From positions 1-41,162 of the forward strand of contig JAGGVH010000036.1 in NCBI GenBank assembly GCA_021158105.1: 41,162 bases of DNA. Reading direction: 5' to 3'. A program made the translations under genes and the position numbers. This document shows, one piece after another, positions 4,384 through 26,743 of the stretch. The stretch is from Microcaldota archaeon (lineage in GTDB: Archaea > Micrarchaeota > Micrarchaeia > Anstonellales > JAGGVH01). A model generated the notes under the pieces. It was not told the origin of the DNA. It worked only from the letters and a program-made list of their open reading frames with translations, and made no database searches. Position 1 is the stretch's first letter. Each line of letters begins with the position of its first letter.

Positions 4384-4495
4384 CGCCCCGGGCCGGACTT
4401 GAACCGACGACCTTCCGGTTACTGCTTTTTCTTGATGAAACTTCTTTTCAAGAAGTTTCTAACAGCCGGACGCTCTACCACTAAGCTACCGGGGC
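4384..4495 (-). tRNA. tRNA-Asn(GTT) with a 40-nt intron at 37/38 (intron 4420..4459)
   Basis: Acceptor GCCCCGG/CCGGGGC with G73; D-arm GCTT..GAGC; anticodon stem TCCGG/CCGGA; T-arm GTCGG TTCAAGT CCGGC. Removing the intron gives loop CTGTTAA. BHB-like: CTGT/GCAG 4-bp helix flanked by TAG and TAA bulges. Confidence 0.9.
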
Positions 4496-14111: not shown

Positions 14112-15251
14112 TTATGGCAATACCCATTCAATTTCATAATATTCATGTTTGCTCTTTGGAAGGTTAATTTTTATAACCCTATAAAATGTTACACTGGTTT
14201 CCCTGTCAGCGATTGCCAATATTAGTCCAAGGTTAAGTTTCTGTGCTTCGTGCAATGCATACGCCAGTTCTGCACCACCAATGTATTCCTCTTCACTGAG
14301 CGACCACATGATATAACTTGGCGGGTCATCATACGGTTTCCTGACATTATTCTTCTTGCGATGGTATAGAATGTAATCTAAAGTTACATTCTTGACTTTG
14401 TCTTTCTCATGTTTGGGTATGGCTAATATGAATGTCTTGCGGACCGAGTGTGCCACCCTGACAACTCGCGACCATTCTGAGATCAACATCTTTTGTTTGT
14501 ATGGAAAGACATGAATCACATGTTTAGAATGCATCCATTTCTTGCCGCTGCGTTTAGGGCCAGCACCCGGAAAGTATAACCTGAAATGACTCCCAAACTT
14601 AAACCCTGTCTTGAGCAGGAACCCTTTTGACCTCCAGTCATCATAAACACTGTACATTAAGTCAAAATATTTGTGTTTTCTGACTGCACTTTTAATGATT
14701 TTATCTCTATCAGTTTTTGTAAGCAGTATCCCTTTATCTATAAGGTATAATGTTTCATAAATGTCAAGGTAGTAATATTTTCCCCTGTGTTCTGCTTTGT
14801 ACGTTCCCATCTGCCCAAACCAATAATCATAATATAATTGTGGGAGTTCTTCACCGTATTCGTCAACCACAGTCATCAGGTCATTCTTGTAAAATTTGCC
14901 GTTTATTGTTATGTCGGGCAAGGAGGTATTTGCGGGTTTATATTTTCTGGCCATTGTTTTTTTCTTAACTCTTTTAATTTCATCTTTGGCTTTTGGATGA
15001 TTAAAATCTAATAAGTATAACCCTCTGTCCCGCCATGCTTTATACCCATAATATTTTGAAGGTTTTTTCATCAATTCTGTGAACCGTAATGGGCAGTTTG
15101 CATTCCGTATGTCCATAAGGTACATTGCTTCCTCAGGTGAAAGGTAGACTTTATTTTTCTTTTGAACGCCTATCCTTCCATTTACAAGTGAACTTACAGT
15201 TTGCGGGTCATCAGCATAAACCTTTTTTCCTTTGTTTTTTAATAATAACAT
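14112..15251 (-). CDS. endA: tRNA-splicing endonuclease, apparently three-unit (epsilon2-like)
   Basis: Central catalytic unit FDLMYSVYDDWRSKGFLLKTGFKFGSHFRLYFPG...HSKHVIHVF...VRVAHSVRKTFILAI (Y/H/K triad), with an extra N-terminal unit (KAWRDRGLYLLDF) and a C-terminal non-catalytic unit (YIMWSLSEEEYIGGAELAYALHEAQKLNLGLILAIADRETSVTFYRV). Confidence 0.85.
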   Translation of the reverse strand: MLLLKNKGKKVYADDPQTVSSLVNGRIGVQKKNKVYLSPEEAMYLMDIRNANCPLRFTELMKKPSKYYGYKAWRDRGLYLLDFNHPKAKDEIKRVKKKTMARKYKPANTSLPDITINGKFYKNDLMTVVDEYGEELPQLYYDYWFGQMGTYKAEHRGKYYYLDIYETLYLIDKGILLTKTDRDKIIKSAVRKHKYFDLMYSVYDDWRSKGFLLKTGFKFGSHFRLYFPGAGPKRSGKKWMHSKHVIHVFPYKQKMLISEWSRVVRVAHSVRKTFILAIPKHEKDKVKNVTLDYILYHRKKNNVRKPYDDPPSYIMWSLSEEEYIGGAELAYALHEAQKLNLGLILAIADRETSVTFYRVIKINLPKSKHEYYEIEWVLP

Positions 15252-26412: not shown

Positions 26413-26480
26413 ATATATTTATTTTTACAAAATCTATTTTTTTATCTTATAGCAATATTTTTAAACAGTTTTAATGAAAA

Positions 26481-26589
26481 CGTTCATAACCTTCTCATTA
26501 CTCGCTAATGCTCGTAATGCCGAGGTCTTGATGAACGACGATACGTTCATAACCCTCGTCATTATTCATTCCATTCATAATGCCGAGGT
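26481..26589 (+). repeat. Imperfect direct repeat of the tRNA-Met leader plus tRNA 5' end (26481-26526 and 26544-26589)
   Basis: Both 46-nt copies begin cgttcataacc and end aatgccgaggt. Confidence 0.7.
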
Positions 26590-26743
26590 AGCTCAGTCGG
26601 TTAGAGCGCCAGACTCATATTCGTATGAGTGATGAGCCTGAAGGCGATGATTGATAAAGGCGCTCTGAGTAATCTGGAGGTCGGGGGTTCTAAGCTTTTT
26701 CTTTATATAAGAAAAAGTTTGCCCAAAAGTCCCCCCCTCGGCA
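26582..26743 (+). tRNA. tRNA with CAT anticodon (elongator Met most likely), two introns: 26620..26671 (37/38) and 26691..26726 (T-loop, 56/57)
   Basis: Acceptor GCCGAGG/CCTCGGC plus A73; D-arm GCTC..GAGC; anticodon arm CCAGA CTCATAA TCTGG; T-arm GGGGG TTCAAGT CCCCC after removing both inserts; mature length 74 nt. Confidence 0.9.

Follow-up and report, generated by a model that had tools for sequence, protein, structure and literature searches.

A putative C/D-type guide for wobble-base methylation in the anticodon-loop intron of a twice-interrupted elongator tRNA-Met gene from Micrarchaeota

The window (the whole stretch of DNA that was analysed, 41,162 nucleotides) contains an elongator tRNA-Met gene that is interrupted by two introns. 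The reading that we prefer, at a rough probability of 0.8, is that the tRNA is spliced twice, that intron 1 acts as a C/D-type guide for the ribose methylation of C34 (Cm34) of its own tRNA, and that intron 2 is a member of an intron family without such a function. The gene had been predicted from the sequence as a tRNA-Met(CAT) with two introns, one of them in the T-loop, and this is supported; overlooked were the conserved C/D-type guide in intron 1, the family to which the T-loop intron belongs and the broad-specificity splicing endonuclease (EndA) that is encoded in the same window. The features are the following, with the basis of each given between brackets:

26582-26743, plus strand: pre-tRNA-Met(CAT), elongator type (ARAGORN on the spliced sequence; orthologs)
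26582-26619, 26672-26690 and 26727-26743, plus strand: mature exons, 74 nt when joined (ARAGORN on the spliced sequence)
26614-26620, plus strand: 5' side of splicing motif 1, CTCA (26614-26617) and bulge TA^T (sequence; ortholog pairing)
26620-26671, plus strand: intron 1, 52 nt, position 37/38 (3' splice bulge NN^A38 kept in orthologs)
26624-26630, plus strand: antisense element 1, TATGAGT, which is complementary to A31-A37 and so covers the anticodon (pattern search; orthologs)
26632-26635, plus strand: box D'-like ATGA, CTGA in several orthologs (ortholog comparison)
26636-26645, plus strand: kink-turn C-stem GCC(TGAA)GGC (45 distinct paired stem sequences in orthologs)
26646-26652, plus strand: kink-turn loop GAT and box C'-like core GATT (canonical RTGATG in orthologs L106, L150 and L152)
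26659-26666, plus strand: antisense element 2, GGCGCTCT, complementary to 26603-26610, from the 3' strand of the D-stem to C28 (10-bp pairing in the window)
26666-26672, plus strand: 3' side of splicing motif 1, TGAG (26666-26669) and bulge TA^A (sequence; ortholog pairing)
26685-26691, plus strand: 5' side of splicing motif 2, GGGT (26685-26688) and bulge TC^T (sequence)
26691-26726, plus strand: intron 2, 36 nt, T-loop position 56/57 (spliced sequence; T-loop site comparison)
26692-26720, plus strand: inner helix of intron 2, 12 bp, AAGCTTTTTCTT / AAGAAAAAGTTT (sequence)
26721-26727, plus strand: 3' side of splicing motif 2, GCCC (26721-26724) and bulge AA^A (sequence)
14112-15251, minus strand: tRNA splicing endonuclease EndA of the epsilon (three-unit, single-chain) type, 379 aa (homology to 4fz2)

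Removal of 26620-26671 (position 37/38) and 26691-26726 (position 56/57) yields a complete cloverleaf of 74 nt, GCCGAGGTAGCTCAGTCGGTTAGAGCGCCAGACTCATAATCTGGAGGTCGGGGGTTCAAGTCCCCCCCTCGGCA; ARAGORN recognises tRNA-Met(cat) in it, every stem being fully paired, and the coordinates that had been proposed are exact. The expectation that a standard finder may miss the gene was borne out as well: ARAGORN gave no call on the unspliced 26582-26743, and the Rfam tRNA model reached 26.8 bits, below its cut-off of 29, with a misplaced T-arm. The elongator type is apparent from G1-C72 and the anticodon stem CCAGA/TCTGG, with neither A1-U72 nor three terminal G-C pairs; the initiator tRNA-Met is encoded by a separate gene (L111) with A1-U72, a GGG-CCC anticodon stem and an intron of its own. 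An intact second elongator CAT gene, which the original prediction had named as evidence against itself, was not found in the host genome (0.96 Mb, 88.8% complete), where only the initiator was recovered besides and where no separate tRNA-Ile2(CAU) gene was located. In its prolyl-tRNA synthetase the host is 75% identical to Candidatus Micrarchaeota archaeon AUK049, as compared to about 57% for other DPANN genomes, and it is accordingly assigned to the Micrarchaeota. Since the 5' exon with its insertion at 37/38 recurs at the orthologous genes of relatives, and since similar introns occupy the same T-loop site in other tRNA genes of this genome, the double interruption is not a product of chance.

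The 5' exon pattern matched 245 of the 303 genomes of the class Micrarchaeia, and the pattern CTCATA-N(3-33)-TATGAGTNNTGA, which joins the exon to the guide, matched 89 of them as compared to about 5 for the reversed control. In the orthologous introns CTCATA is followed, after a loop, by TATGAGT; one nucleotide further comes NTGA, then a short hairpin with NNTGA behind it, and the tail up to A38 is variable. We recognised 131 distinct genes by their 5' exon, 122 of which had a parsable 3' exon. Of these 122 genes, 111 had TGAGT-N-NNGA and, in kink-turn register, a stem of 2 bp or more; the set is enriched for the guide as some loci were gathered via the guide-pattern search, and in its cleanest part (L185-L269) the guide layout is likewise the rule. 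In two further genes (L106 and L150), beyond the 111, guide and CTGA are present and the spacer is very short. The guide is lacking in families f12 and f18 and in genus g18 of family f8, and must thus be dispensable somewhere. The tRNA-Met genes of genus g18 (L104, L105 and L258-L260) have short introns and offer a natural comparison for the loss of Cm34. Related introns were found in genomes titled Aenigmatarchaeota and, once, Woesearchaeota, and the same pattern was not found in the Nitrosopumilales, Thermoplasmatota and Pacearchaeota genomes that were tried; one match (L285) lies outside any tRNA and was discarded as chance.

A first hint of the guide came from weak Rfam matches to C/D sRNAs within intron 1. 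C/D guides direct methylation to the nucleotide that is opposite the fifth position before box D or D'. In the window a single nucleotide separates TATGAGT from box D', and the G at position 5 before D' faces C34; the same nucleotide is faced in all orthologs with the kink-turn layout, and Cm34 formation by fibrillarin is therefore predicted. If NTGA is taken as D' and NNT-GA as C', the stem begins 0 nt after D' and ends 3 nt before the GA of C', which we take to be the geometry of a box C/D kink-turn. When C' was required to contain TGA, the mean stem length was 3.5 bp at the 3-nt offset and 0.4-1.4 bp at the other offsets. In the larger set the mean was 3.7 bp at a loop of 3 nt, with at least 3 bp in 99 of 111 genes and 45 distinct stems (e.g. 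GCC/GGC, GGC/GCC, GTGCGC/GCGCAC and ACTTAACCA/TGGTTAAGT), where these covariation counts include related sequences and carry no correction for phylogeny. The boxes are canonical in family f8 (CTGA and RTGATG in L106, L150 and L152) and degenerate in the window itself (D' ATGA, C' AUGAUU). The nucleotide before the TGA of D', set against its kink-turn partner, gave a weak excess (39 versus 31 in shuffles, of 110; p 0.014) that we do not rely on.

The guide helix, at 7 bp, is short for a methylation guide, and a terminal box C/D pair forming a second kink-turn could not be recognised: no box C was seen ahead of the guide, where the loop measures 4 nt in the window. Archaeal C/D guides usually need both box pairs for full activity. 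The first bases of the intron pair with those preceding the guide (3 bp in 54% of cases versus 8% of shuffles), and this extra stem across the anticodon-guide loop favours pairing inside the precursor. Element 2 (GGCGCTCT) shows compensatory changes with the exon in several orthologs (e.g. GAGTGCA with TGTACTC) and is absent in others; its pairing over all orthologs is in modest excess (mean 6.4 nt versus 5.0 nt in shuffles), and we treat it as accessory because it is absent in families with short introns. The intron of the initiator tRNA-Met (L111) contains no comparable guide plus kink-turn. Two other assignments of the boxes were considered and set aside. GTGATGA (26630-26636) as box C together with CTGA (26665-26668) as box D does not hold, as the variation of paired stems follows the D'/C' reading and orthologs carry e.g. 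TTCTGA in place of GTGATGA. The terminal CTGA might also serve as the box D of a second guide, directed at C27; this is not favoured, as orthologs often have CTGG there or a shifted box although the pairing is kept.

With respect to splicing, both junctions present a central helix of 4 bp and conform to the relaxed rather than the strict bulge-helix-bulge (BHB) motif. The BHB that had been proposed for intron 1 stands as far as the CTCA/TGAG helix and the TA^T and TA^A bulges are concerned, and CTCA is paired at three or all four of its positions in 114 of 122 orthologs; the strict form does not stand, since the inner helix beside CTCA/TGAG is missing.

The hairpin formed by the guide might have another purpose. 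In an ordinary tRNA with two introns, TATGAGT and the kink-turn-like hairpin would only help the precursor to adopt a fold fit for splicing, e.g. one that conceals the anticodon, and no methylation would occur. Such a role would agree with the extension of the anticodon-guide hairpin into intron 1 and with the pairing of the same bases that splicing uses, yet it predicts neither an NTGA box at a fixed spacing of one nucleotide, nor a 0/3 kink-turn register that persists while the stems change, nor the canonical CTGA and RTGATG boxes of some orthologs, and the motif with the actual 3' splice site lies apart, where the intron ends. We therefore regard it as unlikely.

Doubts about the identity of the host tRNA carry less weight. 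A tRNA-Ile2(CAU), in which C34 is converted to agmatidine, has identical anticodon letters, no separate gene for it was located in this incomplete genome, and the ARAGORN call does not decide between Met and Ile2 because it rests on the anticodon. The exons fit what we take to be the usual pattern of archaeal elongator tRNA-Met, however, which counts against Ile2. A guide for Cm34 also fits Met, as in Pyrococcus (PMC7994747), and altogether we deem the Ile2 identity very improbable. That the gene is degenerate or dead, with the real elongator tRNA encoded elsewhere, is hardly credible: the two introns and the 88.8% completeness of the genome could be cited in its favour, but the cloverleaf is perfect, orthologs are recognised by the 5' exon pattern in the large majority of genomes given above, and no other elongator CAT gene was found.

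Two enzymes of the preferred reading, EndA and fibrillarin, have genes in the genome. Residues 2-379 of the EndA in the window align end to end with the epsilon EndA of ARMAN-2 (4fz2; E 1.5e-98), the catalytic Y, H and K are conserved in the alignment, and the locus is the sole EndA locus found in the genome; the enzyme is of the ARMAN-2 type, a single three-unit chain of about 390 aa, which accepts relaxed BHB motifs. A fibrillarin gene is present as well (E 2.9e-79). From the sequence we infer transcription, splicing, protein binding, methylation and the manner of action, in cis or in trans, as follows. The EndA would cut out both introns, the D'/C' kink-turn of intron 1 would be bound by L7Ae, and TATGAGT would pair with A31-A37 such that the ribose of C34 could be methylated by Nop5-fibrillarin; intron 1 might act as a guide before or after its excision. 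As CTCA is needed by the guide helix and by the splicing helix with TGAG, the transcript would have to refold, and because the two helices are mutually exclusive, methylation before splicing would be the simplest order. A bolder version, which we offer tentatively and hold to be rather doubtful, is that the elongator tRNA-Met intron across Micrarchaeia and some other DPANN would be an obligate single-kink-turn guide by which C34 is methylated in cis within the anticodon-guide hairpin of the precursor, wobble methylation then being a checkpoint before the competing splicing helix forms.

Intron 2 contains the BHB-like core that had been described for it, i.e. GGGT/GCCC with TC^T and AA^A bulges and an inner helix of 12 bp, and it lacks an outer helix beside GGGT/GCCC because the GGG of the T-stem is used in that helix. 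A proper T-loop (TTCAAGT) is obtained only if the intron sits at 56/57; splicing at 59/60, as in a relative of the same genus, was considered and does not fit. The motifs GGTTC^CGACCTTTT and GGTTC^TGTCCTTTT occur ten times in the genome at 0-1 mismatches, and the printed contexts are all tRNA T-loops; only such matches within tRNA genes were counted, because at 2 mismatches the control equals the signal. Nine of the ten show a full acceptor match with predicted splicing at 56/57; their introns measure 38-91 nt, their central helix is GGGT/RCCY and their 3' bulge AA^R. The tenth (L293) shares these ends, and its 5' acceptor lies beyond the scanned stretch. The hosts include tRNA-Ala(GGC), tRNA-Arg(TCG) and tRNA-Glu(TTC). 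The copy in the window, which was compared separately from these members, is the most divergent one, and its full-length alignment is better than those of helix-shuffled versions (p 0.002-0.045). Intron 2 is thus part of a family of look-alike 56/57 T-loop introns that this genome has in at least nine, and up to eleven, of its tRNA genes.

T-loop introns had been called unusual, a description that does not apply here: the T-arm is interrupted in about 28 of the 122 orthologous tRNA-Met genes. The relative of the same genus carries a different T-loop intron, at 59/60 and with a strict motif, and together these data indicate that T-loop introns come and go and that intron 1 stays; the persistence of intron 1 would be explained by a selected function. 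No sign of a guide-like function was seen in intron 2. We propose that the T-loop introns multiplied in the genome and may be tolerated because this type of EndA accepts relaxed motifs, which would make them a recent and countable example of how tRNA introns spread beside a broad-specificity EndA. We found little literature on T-loop introns or on tRNA introns of Micrarchaeota. In Thermoproteales and ARMAN, T-loop and other non-canonical tRNA introns are removed by EndA of the (alpha-beta)2 or epsilon2 form (PMC6379350; PMC4033280); the T-loop position, the relaxed motif and the broad-specificity EndA are shared with the present case, whereas here a single genome has similar introns at the same site (56/57) in as many as eleven of its tRNA genes.

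The content of intron 1 is not new in kind, as comparable introns are already known from tRNA-Trp and from Nanoarchaeum equitans. The intron of archaeal pre-tRNA-Trp (Haloferax volcanii; sR50 of Pyrococcus) is a box C/D guide for its own C34 and U39 (PMC7994747; PMC4090602), for which the question of cis or trans action was settled in favour of trans (PMC7994747). Both are 37/38 introns with a guide against the anticodon loop of their own tRNA and with C34 as a target, but the present guide lies in an elongator tRNA-Met, no more than a single kink-turn (D'/C') can be made out in it, and antisense element 2 points to the region of the D-stem and not to U39. For the elongator tRNA-Met of N. equitans, a 66-nt intron with a stable C/D-like RNA was seen by RNA-seq (PMC3491384), i.e. 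the same tRNA and the same kind of content, a likeness drawn from its description rather than from a sequence alignment; the part of that report consulted names no methylation target, whereas here there are a target register, kink-turn covariation and class-wide conservation. In Pyrococcus, C34 of tRNA-Met is targeted by a trans-acting C/D sRNA (PMC7994747), so that the predicted target is the same and the guide is a separate gene there and intron-borne here. The advance over these cases consists of the assigned target, an architecture with one kink-turn and the class-wide conservation. The reading would add elongator tRNA-Met to tRNA-Trp as a host of intron-borne methylation guides, the layout with one kink-turn being kept in most of an archaeal class, and it predicts a specific modification for organisms with almost no RNA chemistry. 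Cm34 limits C34 to G-ending codons in the archaeal tRNAs that carry it (PMC7668247).

Various other peculiarities of tRNA genes were observed. Just upstream of the tRNA-Met gene (26480-26589) the window contains a duplication with a spacing of 63 bp that repeats both the first bases of the tRNA (TAATGCCGAGGT) and a hairpin-like stretch, TGAACGACGATACGTTCA; similar stretches precede tRNA-Leu genes in L015 (2384) and L129 (1340), and there too the beginning of the tRNA is copied behind them. A tRNA-Asn(GTT) gene in the window (4384-4495, minus strand) has an intron in the anticodon loop. Elsewhere in the same genome, the tRNA genes of L120, L122 and L291 apparently have D-arm introns besides others, and those of L125, L127, L119, L290 and L293 have long introns made of repeated units (e.g. 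CCCTTTCTTTC...GAAAGAAAGG and TTCAACCCCAAAGAAAGAC), suggestive of repeat expansion or the insertion of introns into introns. In the tRNA-Met genes of L210, L255 and L256 an extra hairpin is flanked by copies of part of the 3' anticodon arm (AAATCGAGAGGT), perhaps a sign of further introns in the variable region.
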